From Pavlovales sp. CCMP2436 (lineage: Eukaryota > Haptophyta > Pavlovophyceae > Pavlovales): a stretch of DNA of 13,941 nt. The notes beneath the pieces were generated by a model. That model worked only from the letters and a program-made list of their open reading frames with translations. It was not told the DNA's origin and searched no databases. Below are positions 1-13,941 of the stretch, in pieces. Numbering within the stretch: position 1 is the stretch's first letter; each line of letters starts with the position of its first letter. Made by a program: the position numbers and the translations under genes. The stretch covers positions 15,562 through 29,502 of the forward strand of contig MU631965.1 in the NCBI GenBank assembly GCA_026770615.1, read 5' to 3'.

Positions 1-286
1 GGGGGGGGGGTCAGCTCTGAAGGCCTGTCCGCTACAGCAGCAGCAGCACGCGGACGGGCGCGCTTCGGGAATGCGGCGCACGGCACGTTATTATTATTAT
101 GATCGTTATAATCATTATGATCATTATGATGATGATGATCATCATCGTCATCATTATAATTACTATCATTCTTATTGTGATTATTACCATTATCATCATC
201 ATTATTATCATTTTTGTTTTGATGGCGCGGCTTACGGCGTAGGTGGAACACGAAATAGAAAGGGGGTAAAAAGAAGAAAGGCTTAC
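1..286 (-). other. TLDc intron 2 (start), with duplicated donor and an ATN-rich microsatellite
   Basis: The donor GTAAGC is at 286-281. A second copy of the junction (minus-strand CGTGTTCCACCTACGCC followed by GTAAGC) lies 51 nt downstream, with its GT at 235-234. An imperfect trinucleotide tract of ATG/ATT/ATC type fills about 88-222. A short CAG/CTG run (39-49) and a possible acceptor (GCGGACAG, ending at 20) are near the window edge, but the sequence after it does not continue a recognisable TLDc strand. The window starts with a G homopolymer, so the next exon may lie outside. Confidence 0.6.
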
Positions 287-1816
287 TGCGTAGGTGGAGC
301 ACGAGTGGCGAAAAATGGCCCTGGTGAGGTCCTCCGTCAAGCTGGCACGATAACGCGATGCGGCGCCGCCAAACCCCACGAGCTCCTCCACCCCGGCCTG
401 CCCGCGCGCCGCAGGGTTGCCGATCGCTTTGACGTTCTGCACGAAACTACAATAGTTGCCGGAGTATTTTGTGGCGGGAAATGCGTGGAAGCGCGGAGCA
501 AGTGCGAAAAGAGCGCAATCTTCGCTGCCAAAGAAGCGACCCGCCTCGGAGGGCGTCCACGGTGTGTCGACGTACGCCGCCCACGACACGCCGTTGCTCA
601 TCGACACGACGACGAGAGAGGGCCCTCCGTAGCCAACCAGAACCGCCCTAGGGGTGGGGGGGAGGAGAGGGGAGGGGGGAGGGTACGCTGTACATGAATA
701 TTGGGTCACACTGGGCTGAGGTCACACACACACACACACGTACACTCAGAACTAGCGCGAATCGCACCTCCAGCGGTTCAGCAACACACACACATACACT
801 CAGAACGAGCGCAGCATTTATATTTATTTTTATCTCAACTCCAGCGGTACATGCTGAGCTCACTGGGTCGCATAGGACTGCGGCCACACACACACACATT
901 CACACAAAAGGAGCGCAAAATACCTCCAGCGGTTCATGCTGAGCCCCTGCTCCGCCGAGGTGTACAGCAACCTCCACTCGTCAATCGGCGAGCCATTGGA
1001 CGGCTGCGGCACGGCGAGCGAGATGGCCCAGGTGAGCGCAGGAGTGAGCACAAGCGAGGGCGACTCTGCCTCCTCCGAGCCGCTCAGCCCCACCAGGCGC
1101 GGCATCCATCGCTCCTCGGCCACCCGCATTGAGCGGGCAGAGGGCAAGCTCGCAGCAGCCAGCACTGCCACGCCGCGCATCACGAGTAGTTCTGCGACCT
1201 CGCCAAGCCTCGGCACGCACGCGCACGCCCAGCGTACCCATGCAGCGCGCGAGAGCGATCCCACGAGGAGCGCGTCGGCCACCACCGGCTCTAGCGCGCT
1301 CGCCCCGCCAATACCCTGCGCGTCGGAGCAATGGCGCGCGCAGCAGACGAGCAGTGCAAAGAGCGAGGGCTCGTCGAGCGCGCGATCCTCCAGCTCGTCG
1401 CTCGACTCGAGCGCTGCCTTGTCGAGCTCGAGCACCCTGGGGTCGGGCTGCGCGTCGGCTGACGCCATGAGTTCCCACAACACGCCCAGCCGAGCCGCGT
1501 TGGCCAGTCCGGGGTTGAGGTGGGCGCCCGATGCCGGCTTCCAGGCCGCGAGCCCGTCGACCCACGCGCACCACGGCACGCGCGCCAACGGGCCCTCGCC
1601 CCGCGCCATGCGCGCGAAGAGGCGGTCGATCGCTCCAGTTGGCAACATCGCTCCAAAGGCCGTGCCAAACTGCGCGCGGCTAAGCCCGCCCGCGTCACCC
1701 TTGGCGAAGGCGCGCCGCAGGAGCACGAGTTCGTCCTCGTCGAAGCGGCCCGCCTGCGCGGGCTGCGACAGGGCCGCAGCGGCATTCGCCGGGGCGCCGC
1801 TTGGGCTGTTGCCCAT
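287..1816 (-). CDS. TLDc-domain protein, MEAK7/TLDC1-like (partial at 3' end)
   Basis: Two exons are supported: 1816-924 and 647-287, joined by a GT-AG intron (donor GTATTT at 923, acceptor CCCTAG ending at 648). The junction codon AG|G keeps frame and joins NRW to RAVLVGYGGPSLVVV, a normal TLDc core. The first 418 residues are seen. Residues 1-7 are MGNSPSG, an N-myristoylation-type start as in animal MEAK7. Residues about 25-90 are helical and EF-hand-like. The TLDc domain runs from about residue 252, with YTSAEQGLSMNRW, then ALFALAPRFHAFPATKYSG, then ELVGFGG and SLTEDLTR. I chose the ATG at 1816; the same frame opens earlier only with TTG. Exon 2 ends CSTYA|GTAAGC at 287, and the last TLDc strand must lie in a further exon that I cannot identify. 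Family knowledge: TLDc proteins bind or regulate V-ATPase, and MEAK7 is lysosomal and linked to TOR signalling. An inverted CCAAT lies at 1846-1850. The domain call is strong; the subfamily is inferred. Confidence 0.82.
648..923 (-). repeat. TLDc intron 1, made of three tandem copies of the exon-end junction
   Basis: The intron is 276 nt. On the minus strand the exon tail ACCGCTGGAG occurs three times: at the real boundary (943-924), at 858-839 and at 780-768. Each copy is followed by GCGCTCnTTnTG-like sequence and a run of GT repeats; the first and third are then followed by a GACC/GCC-CAG segment. The third copy again has GGAG followed by GT (767-766), so it is a potential second donor; the middle copy reads GGAG followed by TT. 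The units are about 85 and 71 bp long and diverged. A pyrimidine tract at 652-690 precedes the acceptor. Confidence 0.8.
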
Positions 1817-7931: not shown

Positions 7932-8174
7932 TTATGAACCGACGATGTGCTGCCTGCGCTTGTGCCGCTTGATGTGTCCCGACTGAGCTGCCCGGTACTC
8001 GCAGTCCGGCTCGTCGTACGCTTAGGGCCGCTCGCAGCTGTGCGTGCGCTTGTGCACCTTCAGGTCCCTCACCCGAACTGTTCGGTGCTCGCAGTCCGGC
8101 TCGTCGCACGCGTACAGCTGCTCGCCGCTGTGCGTGCGCTTGTGCCGCTTGAGATCGCCCGGCTGAGCTGCCCG
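7932..8174 (-). pseudogene. Decayed C-terminal fingers 8-10 of the C2H2 array
   Basis: After the TAA at 8177-8175 the same frame continues without indels through the rest of finger 8, all of finger 9 and a damaged finger 10, ending at TAA 7934-7932. The first TAA replaces the usual Tyr codon TAC of the finger. A second TAA (8024-8022) replaces the first aromatic residue of finger 10, and its first zinc cysteine has become Tyr. The 90-bp DNA period is intact. This reads as a longer ancestral array shortened by point mutation. A GTGAGG donor-like site in finger 9 is noted but no matching acceptor was found. Confidence 0.7.
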
Positions 8175-9194
8175 TTACTCACAGTCCGGCTCGTCGCAGG
8201 CGTACGGCTGCTCGCCGCTGTGCTTTCGCTTGTGCTGCTCCAGGTGGCTCGCACGAGCTGCCCGGTACTCGCAGTCTGGCTCGTCGCACGCGTACGGCTG
8301 CTCACCGCTGTGCGTGCGCTTGTGCTGCTTGAGGTTGCTTGCCTGAGCTGCCCGGTACTTACACTCCGGCTCGTCGCACGGGAACGGCCGCTCGCCGCTG
8401 TGCGTGCGCTTGTGGCTCTTGAGGTGGCCGGATAGAATGGCGCTGCACTCGCAGCCTGGCTCGTCACACGGGAACGGCCGCTTGCCGGTGTGCGTGCGCT
8501 TGTGTGTCTCGAGGGTGCCCGAAGTAGTGGCGCTGTACTCGCAGCCCGCCTCGTTGCACGCGTACGGCCGCTCGCCGCTGTGCATGCGCTTGTGCGTACT
8601 GAGGCGGCTCGCCGCAGTGGCCGTATACCCACAGTCTGGCTCGTCGCACGCGTACGGCCGCTCGCCGCGGTGCATGCGCTTGTGAAACTTGAGGTGGCTC
8701 TTCTGAATAGCCCGGAAATCGCAGTCTGGCTCGTCGCACGCGAACGGCCGCTCGCCGCTGTGCGTGCGCTTGTGATTCTTGAGGTAGCCCGCCTGTGTTG
8801 CCCGGTACGTGCACCCGGCCTCGTCGCACGGGAAGCTGCGCGCGGGCTCGGCGCTCGGCAGCGACGCGTCGCCATCCGAGTCGACGTCGCTCGCACCGCT
8901 GACGAGCGTGCAATACTCAGCTGCTCCGGGCGCGTGCGTGCATCCGTCCCGGCGCGAGCATCTCGATGGCTCGTTGCCTCCTCCCGCGCTGACGCACCAC
9001 CCGATCACGTCGGAAGCCGGGGCCGCCCGCACCGAGCGGCGCGAACTCCTCCCGGCGGTGGGGCGCCATGCTGCCGCGCTCGCTTTTAAAACCTGTCTCC
9101 GTCGACCCGCAAGGCACGCAGCCGTCGTGAGGATATGAAAAAATCCGTACGCCAAAGGCGCAGTCCGGGTCAGCACCTGGTATCGAGTCTTCAT
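8175..9194 (-). CDS. C2H2 zinc-finger array protein (seven complete fingers)
   Basis: From residue 121 of a 339-residue frame the protein is a head-to-tail array of 30-residue fingers, each C-x4-C-x12-H-x3-H with the linker HSGERPF/Y. Finger 1 starts at 8834, finger 7 ends at 8205, and TAA at 8177-8175 stops the protein inside finger 8. The C-x4-C spacing and CDEPDC knuckle are TFIIIA-like. Backbone residues are nearly constant while helix positions -1, 2, 3 and 6 differ between fingers, as in sequence-specific DNA binders. The start is uncertain: ATG at 9194 is the only in-frame ATG, but the residues up to about 95 are not protein-like. A better-context ATG at 9069 (MAPHRREEFAPLG) is in another frame and would need an intron before the acidic stretch VDSDGDASLPSAEP. 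Likely a nuclear DNA-binding protein; target unknown. Confidence 0.75.
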   Translation of the reverse strand: MKTRYQVLTRTAPLAYGFFHILTTAACLAGRRRQVLKASAAAWRPTAGRSSRRSVRAAPASDVIGWCVSAGGGNEPSRCSRRDGCTHAPGAAEYCTLVSGASDVDSDGDASLPSAEPARSFPCDEAGCTYRATQAGYLKNHKRTHSGERPFACDEPDCDFRAIQKSHLKFHKRMHRGERPYACDEPDCGYTATAASRLSTHKRMHSGERPYACNEAGCEYSATTSGTLETHKRTHTGKRPFPCDEPGCECSAILSGHLKSHKRTHSGERPFPCDEPECKYRAAQASNLKQHKRTHSGEQPYACDEPDCEYRAARASHLEQHKRKHSGEQPYACDEPDCE

Positions 9195-12130: not shown

Positions 12131-12464
12131 TCAGTTATCGTGATTTCTCGGCCGCGCGATTTCTCCCGACGGCGGCACCCGCGTCAGATTTCCGAGCACG
12201 CGGCTCAGCACGAGCAGCCGCGCCTGGCGCGAGCGCTCCGCGGCGTCGGCTATGTCGAGCTCCACGGCCGGGCTACAAGCGCCATCGAGGGGCTCGTCGT
12301 GTGCCTGCCTCCCCGGCCGTGATCCGGCGGTCGTGAGCTTGAAGCAGTAGAGGGAGTTGTCGCGGCAGCCGACGAGGACGAGTGAGCGACTCGAATAAAC
12401 GACCGGGGAGGAATGCACGGCGCCTGCACGAACCATATTACACCGAACAAACTATTATGAACCA

Positions 12465-12511
<47 letters not shown>

Positions 12512-13319
12512 TTATATTATATATATATATATATATATAAATATGTATATATTTACTTATTTATATATATTAATGATACATATATTATGAAATACTTAAC
12601 GTATCTGCCCCCGACCCAGCAAAAAAACAAAAAGAAAAGGAACGATTATAAAAAAAAAATTGGCGCGCACCCGGGAGTTGTATGGTCGCAAGTTCAGCTC
12701 CGCTGGTCGCGGAGAGGACGAGCAGGGCCCCATCGGCCGAACCCACAATGAGCAACTCTATATATATATATATATATTGTATAGCATCGCAAGTGTTAGT
12801 GCTGCTGCTGTAAAAGAAAAGGATTTTTTTTTTAAGATTGTAACTGCAGGTTGCGGAGAGGACGCGCAGTATTCAATAAATTAAAGCTAGCGCAGCCGAC
12901 TTAGGCACGCACCAGGCAATGAACGACGCAGCACTCAGACCAGCACAATATTCAGAACAGTCAGACACCCGCTTGAATCCCTATCAGAAATAAATTAAAG
13001 GACCATCGGCCGAACCCACGAGAAGTAGCTCTTTTGAAATAATAGTTCTTTTAACGTCCTGTAATAAATGATGAATACATATTAGATTATCTTCGCATTA
13101 TATGGCAAGGCACGATTTCTTTCATTTGTGGGTTCGTTCTGTGGGATAAATTTGGCTGTGCACTCCAACCAAGCCCGCTAAAAAACGAGGCGATTTTTTT
13201 TTTTTTTTTTAATGCCACCTCTTACGGCCACCTGTGCTGGGCGCTGAGTGGCCGCCGCCCTAATACTATTTAGGACATCATCCGTTTGTGTTGATGTGTT
13301 CCTTCGTTTGGGGCGTAAA

Positions 13320-13654: not shown

Positions 13655-13900
13655 TTAAATTAACAAATTCATGCCCAATAACCTCGTCATTGGTGTAGCT
13701 ATTTCAGTTAGTGCTGGAATATTATTCGCAGTATCAGGGTCCATGTTAGTGGTGTGTTTCAGGTGGTAATTGTGTGAAGAGTTATCGTCGTTGTTGTAGT
13801 TTTCAGTGTCATTGTCCAAATCGGAATCGGAATCAAAATCAACACCCAAATATTTATAAGTACAATCTAATAAAACTGCAAGAAGGATCATTGTCATCAA
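13655..13900 (-). CDS. AT-rich ORF with hydrophobic start and acidic, Asn-rich body (doubtful)
   Basis: From ATG 13900 the frame gives 81 residues to TAA 13657-13655. MMTMILLAVLLDC is hydrophobic; the rest (DFDSDSDLDNDTENYNNDD, then NNIPALTEIATPMTRLLG) is polar and acidic. The GC content is far below that of the neighbouring exons. The ORF lies upstream of the propeller exon at 13640, on the same strand, so it may only be open intron sequence. The frame also stays open through the 51-bp tandem repeat to the window edge. I do not recognise the protein. Confidence 0.25.
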   Translation of the reverse strand: MMTMILLAVLLDCTYKYLGVDFDSDSDLDNDTENYNNDDNSSHNYHLKHTTNMDPDTANNIPALTEIATPMTRLLGMNLLI

Positions 13901-13941
13901 ATATTTATAAGTACAATCTAATAAAACTGCAAGAAGGATCA
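13847..13941. repeat. 51-bp tandem repeat, cut by the window edge
   Basis: CAAATATTTATAAGTACAAT and the following bases recur exactly 51 bp later (13898), continuing to the last base. Since 51 is 17 codons, the overlapping minus-strand frame stays open through both copies. Each copy contains minus-strand CTTCTTGCAG, which resembles a 3' splice site. Confidence 0.85.

Follow-up and report, generated by a model that had tools for sequence, protein, structure and literature searches.

Introns of the haptophyte Pavlovales sp. CCMP2436 carry copies of their own splice junctions, probably through serial tandem duplication

At least one copy of an adjoining exon edge was found in 10 of 39 introns sampled from the genome of Pavlovales sp. 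CCMP2436. The best explanation is serial tandem duplication across splice junctions, tolerated since the outermost sites are the ones used, and a probability of roughly 0.8 was assigned to this reading. The pattern was studied in most detail in a TLDc gene located in the window, the whole stretch of DNA that was analyzed (13,941 nucleotides; positions 15562-29502 of contig C595, in an assembly of 119 Mb and 703 contigs). The readable part of the gene is laid out as follows.

924..1816, minus strand: TLDc exon 1, with the ATG at 1816 and a phase 2 end with AACCGCTGGAG; matches P0001
648..923, minus strand: TLDc intron 1, 276 bases, GT..AG; the joined exons match P0001
287..647, minus strand: TLDc exon 2, with a match to the TLDc domain PF07534 and a match to P0001
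1..286, minus strand: start of TLDc intron 2, the acceptor of which lies beyond the readable sequence (N adjoins the window)

The Pfam TLD domain was located in exon 2. A search of approximately 5.8 billion proteins gave four matches to the TLDc protein, the best being P0001, an MMETSP transcriptome protein of 510 residues, the first 418 of which are identical to the product of exon 1 and exon 2 (418/418). Since P0001 opens with these residues, intron 1 is spliced from its first donor, and because P0001 continues SCSTYA-TDTARM, intron 2 is spliced from GCA/GTAAGC (the slash marks the junction). In both introns, this MMETSP protein shows the outer donor alone. An earlier reading of the window, made from the sequence only, had given intron 1 as 648-943; the last 20 of these bases are exon, and the intron is 648-923. 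Its claims that splicing occurs here and that only the first donor yields the known protein agree with P0001.

Within intron 1, the junction at the end of exon 1 is present two more times, and the following features were recorded.

922..944, minus strand: junction copy 1, the used donor, GCTCAGCATGAACCGCTGGAG followed by GT; use shown by P0001
839..859, minus strand: junction copy 2, GCTCAGCATGTACCGCTGGAG followed by TT, not GT; 20/21 of the last exon bases
766..780, minus strand: junction copy 3, a possible donor, TGAACCGCTGGAG followed by GT; 15/15 bases across the junction, GT retained
885..898, minus strand: GT tract of unit 1, matched by TGTGTGTG; the tandem-repeat row spans 885-906
785..794, minus strand: GT tract of unit 2, matched by TGTGTGTG
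723..739, minus strand: GT tract of unit 3; the repeat row is 100% CA on the plus strand

The last bases of exon 1, ACCGCTGGAG (933-924, minus strand), recur at 848-839 and 777-768 within the intron, and these three occurrences were the only ones when both strands of the window were searched. The sequence-only reading had reported this recurrence; the two inner copies, identical over ten bases, are present, and the positions that it gave (839-858 and 768-780) were approximate. When the last 60 exon bases were aligned to intron 1, the score was 21.5. Chance is excluded as the source of this match because the maximum over 2000 dinucleotide shuffles was 13.0 (0/2000 reached the observed score); the maximum for intron 1 against the 38 exon ends of the other introns was also 13.0. 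The units held up when they were aligned formally, with the 20/21 and 15/15 matches listed above. In copy 2, the junction reads GGAG/TT and the donor GT is gone; in copy 3, GGAG/GT is intact, in line with its proposed role as a possible donor. Both intronic copies of the exon end are followed by related sequence and then by a GT tract, and units 1 and 3 can be aligned over about 80 bases, through the tract and past it. This much of the described repeat structure stood, but the array is irregular, the unit spacings being 85 and 71 bases. Translation continued past the first donor runs for 20 more codons and then ends at a TGA (862-860), the early stop that had been predicted.

The second intron of the same gene also contains a duplicated donor, overlooked in the sequence-only reading.

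280..304, minus strand: exon 2/intron 2 junction with the used donor (G at 286), TCGTGCTCCACCTACGCA followed by GTAAGCC; P0001 continues SCSTYA-TDTARM
229..253, minus strand: copy of the intron 2 donor junction, TCGTGTTCCACCTACGCC followed by GTAAGCC, 51 bases inside the intron

The junction (304-280) and its copy (253-229) are identical at 23/25 bases, and the exon part alone scored 15.0, which was reached by 1/2000 shuffles. Between the two donors, the sequence is open and in frame for 17 codons; the 17 residues are absent from P0001. Intron 2, as well as an acceptor-side copy located 86 bases upstream in the TLDc paralogue L003, had been pointed to by an earlier direct-repeat scan of 93,366 readable bases, whose hits combined protein repeats and satellites with junction copies and were excluded from all counts.

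Other repeats were observed in the window. A 30-base unit is present twice (96% alike) at 2216-2278, close to the beginning of a plus-strand gene. On the minus strand, an array of units of about 90 bp at 7951-8830 encodes C2H2 zinc fingers, and a piece of a propeller-like gene with VLSATSG motifs lies at 12461-12884, where an AT microsatellite separates exon-like parts and a coding motif is repeated 144 bases apart. At the window end (13847-13941), there is an AT-rich, perfect 44-base direct repeat with a spacing of 51 bases.

For the sample from elsewhere in the genome, introns were taken from protein families having intron-split domains in the same genome (kinases, kinesins, and SNF2), using short stretches over the gaps. 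The AMP-binding, dynein, ABC, and DEAD families were also searched for split domains and contributed no introns. The sample is a subset of the split matches, and gaps without an intron or very long ones (C91) were left aside. Intron boundaries were curated by reading frame and homology, with transcript support for TLDc introns 1 and 2 and an independent gene model for the intron of C299. Of 30 stretches, 24 yielded 38 introns, which made 39 together with intron 1 of the window. The other six had no usable intron: L033 was partly N, no intron was needed in L040, L042, L046, and L060, and L043 had no AG acceptor. The second gap of L051 was dropped, as it had no GT donor, and the 39 include neither window intron 2 nor L003 (one side only). 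Each 60-nt exon edge was aligned to its own intron, and a score of at least 14 was called a copy.

Some of the stretches showed features of their own. In L051 (C114:39960-40720), the kinase exons NFKFGQ and NFKEFVG have the same nine bases flanking the gap that lacks a GT donor; this may be a GC-AG intron within coding sequence that was duplicated. The kinase intron of L043 (C26:483690-484240) has a GT donor, no AG near the expected acceptor, and an internal tandem repeat. A dispersed repeat, GGATTCA(A/C)GCTGGCGTCTGACTGT...GCTGTGCTGGTCTGAGCGCTGCG, was seen in an intron at L059:1372-1446, minus strand (C186:231291-231365); most of the 42 matches listed are 90-94% identical, similar sequences were recognized by eye in L002, L003, L049, and L054, and the repeat could be a short mobile element.

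Own exon edges reached the threshold on the donor side in 7/39 introns and on the acceptor side in 4/39 (window intron 1 included), as against 6/1482 donor and 10/1482 acceptor tests when exon edges were aligned to introns of other genes (16/2964 for this cross-gene null). With the window intron set aside, 9/38 introns carried a copy (donor side in six, acceptor side in four, both in one), and 10/76 tests were positive (binomial p = 1.5e-11, assuming independence of the tests). The sequence-only reading had treated a single intron; the pattern that it described there is real, and its scope was too narrow, as these other introns include acceptors as well as donors. Codon-shuffled exon edges reached 14 in 16/3900 cases, and a length-matched null (introns >500 bp) was higher, at 10/608 tests. 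All of these rates come from one genome. Templated insertion in both orientations was rejected, since reverse-complement copies are nearly absent (donor 0/39, acceptor 1/39). The single acceptor match belongs to C299 (L049), where the downstream exon edge was matched in reverse complement with a score of 16.0, the sole case of at least 14 among 78 tests.

Of the 11 direct matches, ten are no more than 3 bases from the junction and the other is 8 bases off; such an abutting position is what duplication across a junction must give. The exon part of the copies reaches 56 bases. In C417a, there are three junctions with 48 exon bases each (two extra donor copies), C37 carries three additional copies on the donor side and two on the acceptor side, and C299 has three extra acceptor copies. 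C165b carries copies at both ends, the donor one scoring 12.5, under the threshold of 14. Six further introns were read in two genes picked for holding copies. Two of them, AurA (acceptor, 30.0) and MKa (donor, 25.0), had copies, and the other four were without, two of these being longer than 600 bp (AurB, 639 bp; AurE, 802 bp). The last acceptor of C299 (YMSPERIVGEGYSYPADVWSVG) is used in P0125, the NCBI model of the MAP2K-like gene from Pavlovales sp. CCMP2436, which is identical over 81% of the MAP2K query.

The decay of the copies was followed in 20 copies with scores of at least 12 from 10 introns. Compared with the exon, mismatches amounted to 24/251 (9.6%), 26/254 (10.2%), and 43/251 (17.1%) at codon positions 1, 2, and 3, respectively (chi-square p = 0.017), and seven indels were counted. 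If a copy changes freely while its exon is constrained, positions 1 and 2 should mismatch equally often and position 3 at most twice as often, and the observed rates fit; it is as if the copies decayed freely beside constrained exons. Selection on the copies, considered in view of the third-position differences in C398 and C37, was rejected, because in the pooled data the ratio agrees with one partner being free and the other constrained. At the aligned place, the donor GT is retained in 8/12 copies and the acceptor AG in 6/8.

Copy-bearing introns (136-1133 bp) were longer than the others (81-1125 bp; Mann-Whitney p = 0.0007). Among introns longer than 500 bp, copies were present in 7/8 in the set of 39 and in 9/12 when the two further genes were added. 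Length and copies are not independent, because duplication itself lengthens the intron. Direct repeats that are wholly intronic and outside junction arrays were seen by manual reading in two introns only, C186c and C323d. Some of the excess at junctions is to be anticipated, since every junction pair includes a conserved exon. GT/CA tracts of at least 8 nt were present in 7/10 copy-bearing introns and 6/29 others (Fisher p = 0.008), whereas C runs of at least 8 did not differ (5/10 and 14/29, respectively). The sequence-only reading had proposed the GT microsatellite as a possible driver of the duplications. This was not shown, as the excess of tracts is confounded by intron length (6/9 copy-bearing introns against 4/10 others in a recount of introns >200 bp only), and the driver role is kept as unproven.

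Related proteins were compared at 11 intron sites: two in the TLDc gene, five in an Aurora kinase gene, and four in the MAP2K-like kinase gene, some of these introns being without copies. The relatives are metagenome-predicted proteins, so that interruption of a site was read from the protein alone. Both relatives compared run through nine of the 11 sites without interruption, and at each of the 11 at least one does. The TLDc intron 1 site is uninterrupted in the predicted proteins P0003 and P0004; at the intron 2 site, P0004 is uninterrupted and P0003 has an apparent read-through intron. In the Aurora kinase, P0005 (97% identical) is uninterrupted at 5/5 sites and P0035 at the 4/4 sites that it covers, and in the MAP2K-like kinase, both P0126 and P0127 are uninterrupted at 4/4. 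The proteins P0003, P0005, P0035, and P0126 end in or run into unlike, low-complexity residues, which are read as probable genomic read-through; were they derived from cDNA contigs, the reading of uninterrupted sites would be void. Around the intron 1 site, the TLDc protein has NRWRAVLVGY and the relatives have NRLSKHLIGY and similar residues, a difference that would fit a disturbed site and proves nothing. On these comparisons, the TLDc, Aurora, and MAP2K-like introns look recent.

In the mechanism that we propose, small tandem duplications of about 50-150 bases would straddle a splice junction and recur in the same introns, each one placing a copy of the exon edge with the adjoining intron edge inside the intron. 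The outermost sites are in use wherever independent data are available, namely the donors of TLDc introns 1 and 2 (transcript) and the last acceptor of C299 (NCBI model). As long as the first donor and the last acceptor stay dominant, the protein would be unchanged; the extra copies would be tolerated and diverge at roughly the neutral rate, and they would make the intron longer. Where such duplications fell wholly within exons, they would alter the protein and be removed; therefore, the survivors would look like introns built from their own borders. Growth by tandem duplication of the donor region, as suggested in the sequence-only reading, is the best account of the copies in intron 1.

The copies could instead be scars of intron birth, in which a coding segment was tandem-duplicated and its two copies supplied the donor and the acceptor (the Rogers AGGT model), rather than products of later growth. 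The uninterrupted sites in the relatives and the recent look of the introns speak for this, as do C323d, whose first 13 bases repeat the start of the exon downstream of it, and C115a (9/12 bases matched), both in keeping with that model. Over the 39 introns, however, the in-register match of the intron start to the start of the downstream exon was 3.67/12 for self and 3.51 for non-self comparisons, and that of the exon end to the intron end was 3.67 and 3.93, respectively. In addition, the acceptor side of TLDc intron 1 holds no exon-edge copy (score 7.0), and its units hold sequence that is absent from the downstream exon. Scars of birth are therefore considered unlikely, and classic AGGT birth as a general cause was rejected, there being no in-register signal in the 39 introns. 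Somewhat less likely still is that the copies are functional, their inner sites regulating splicing or adding short peptides by acting as decoys or alternative sites. Several inner donors do look usable (GTAGGT in C37, GTAAGT in C412b), the inner donor of TLDc intron 2 would add 17 codons in frame and free of stops, and some pairs differ mainly at third positions (C398: 1, 0, 5). Function is countered by the pooled divergence of about 10% at codon positions 1 and 2, by the indels, by a stop-like change in copy 3 of C37, by the loss of GT from 4/12 donor copies, and by P0001 (the sequence standing for its cluster), which takes the outer donors in both TLDc introns.

An assembly artefact, with diverged haplotypes or read errors joined in tandem, would be conceivable at the window start, which adjoins an unreadable N stretch and a poly-G run. 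This is very improbable given that divergence among the copies is about 10-17% and follows a codon pattern, that dissimilar sequence separates them, that they occur in at least 11 independent genes with up to three extra copies per side, and that the transcript matches the TLDc exons exactly. The lowest probability was given to introner-like or other mobile elements having brought the sequence in: the genome does have a dispersed repeat located in several introns (42 matches listed), but TLDc intron 1 matched only itself in its own genome (simple repeats skipped, much of the sequence reading N), and the copies in each set look like the exon they adjoin, not like a shared element.

The origin and lengthening of introns is a long-standing question with few cases caught in the act. 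About a quarter of the sampled introns have duplicated borders of differing ages, and the relatives are apparently without the introns; such a genome would allow direct measurement of the duplication rate, of the choice among near-identical splice sites, and of intron decay. It also poses a puzzle of splice-site recognition, namely how one of up to four junction copies gets chosen. Tentatively, and at somewhat less than even odds, serial junction duplication may be the main lengthener of recently gained introns in the pavlovophyte lineage and perhaps helps to establish them; each intron would then stack older versions of the exon edge, amounting to a dated fossil record of how the exon evolved, while the spliceosome would reliably pick the outermost of the competing junctions.

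The class of mechanism is known, and its reach in the one genome covered looks unusual. None of the titles and abstracts of the open-licence literature searched reported junction-copy arrays from pavlovophytes or described them as a common type of intron. Zhuo is said to have associated human introns with tandem arrays in 2007, and a tie between introns and tandem arrays would be shared with the present case.

Introners (Gozashti 2022, PMC9860276) likewise involve lineage-specific spread of introns; they have sequence in common between different genes, whereas the arrays described here copy their own exon, and no similar sequence was found for intron 1 in introns of unrelated genes in the readable part of its own genome, simple repeats being skipped. 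The text of PMC9860276 does not mention the terms haptophyte, Pavlov, Diacronema, Emiliania, or tandem. Direct repeats near splice junctions are also the subject of Rogers and Bendich 2025 (PMC11782384), whose available text describes short pairs (mean about 11 bp) that link the 5' and 3' borders; in the present introns, the copy is of a single border and brings as many as 56 exon bases into the intron. In IFI6, a minisatellite has several splice donors and, as cited in the accessible part of PMC4526556, downstream units are reported as used, giving three mRNA species. Tandem units containing a splice donor at the exon end are common to both, but here the outer donor is used by transcript evidence, and the units are longer, decayed, and found in many genes.

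That introns can be gained by tandem duplication is accepted, according to the available portion of PMC3443670. Five Drosophila intron cases are ascribed to tandem duplications inside the reading frame in the accessible sections of PMC2891723, and fission-yeast introns across two or four 24-bp exon duplicates are mentioned in those of PMC4974935. Local tandem duplication near a splice site with an unchanged protein is shared with the AGGT model, in which both splice sites come from the exon copy; here the copies come on top of a donor and an acceptor that are separate. Among the 39 introns, only C323d, and weakly C115a, look as if their donor and acceptor derived from two exon copies. The potato RdRp gene offers a case of intron gain by a tandem duplication crossing the intron-exon boundary (Ma, Lan and Niu 2016, PMC4974935). 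As in that case, a direct copy of the exon end and intron start, junction included, lies next to the original, and the protein is preserved via the parental splice signals (418 residues of P0001). In the available text, the potato duplication likewise spans the splice junction and inherits the parental splice signals, and the intron that it produced is absent in relatives, as the introns here may be, but it was a single duplication in one gene that created a second intron. In Pavlovales sp. CCMP2436, the duplications are repeated, affect the donor and acceptor sides in many genes, and each time enlarge one intron.
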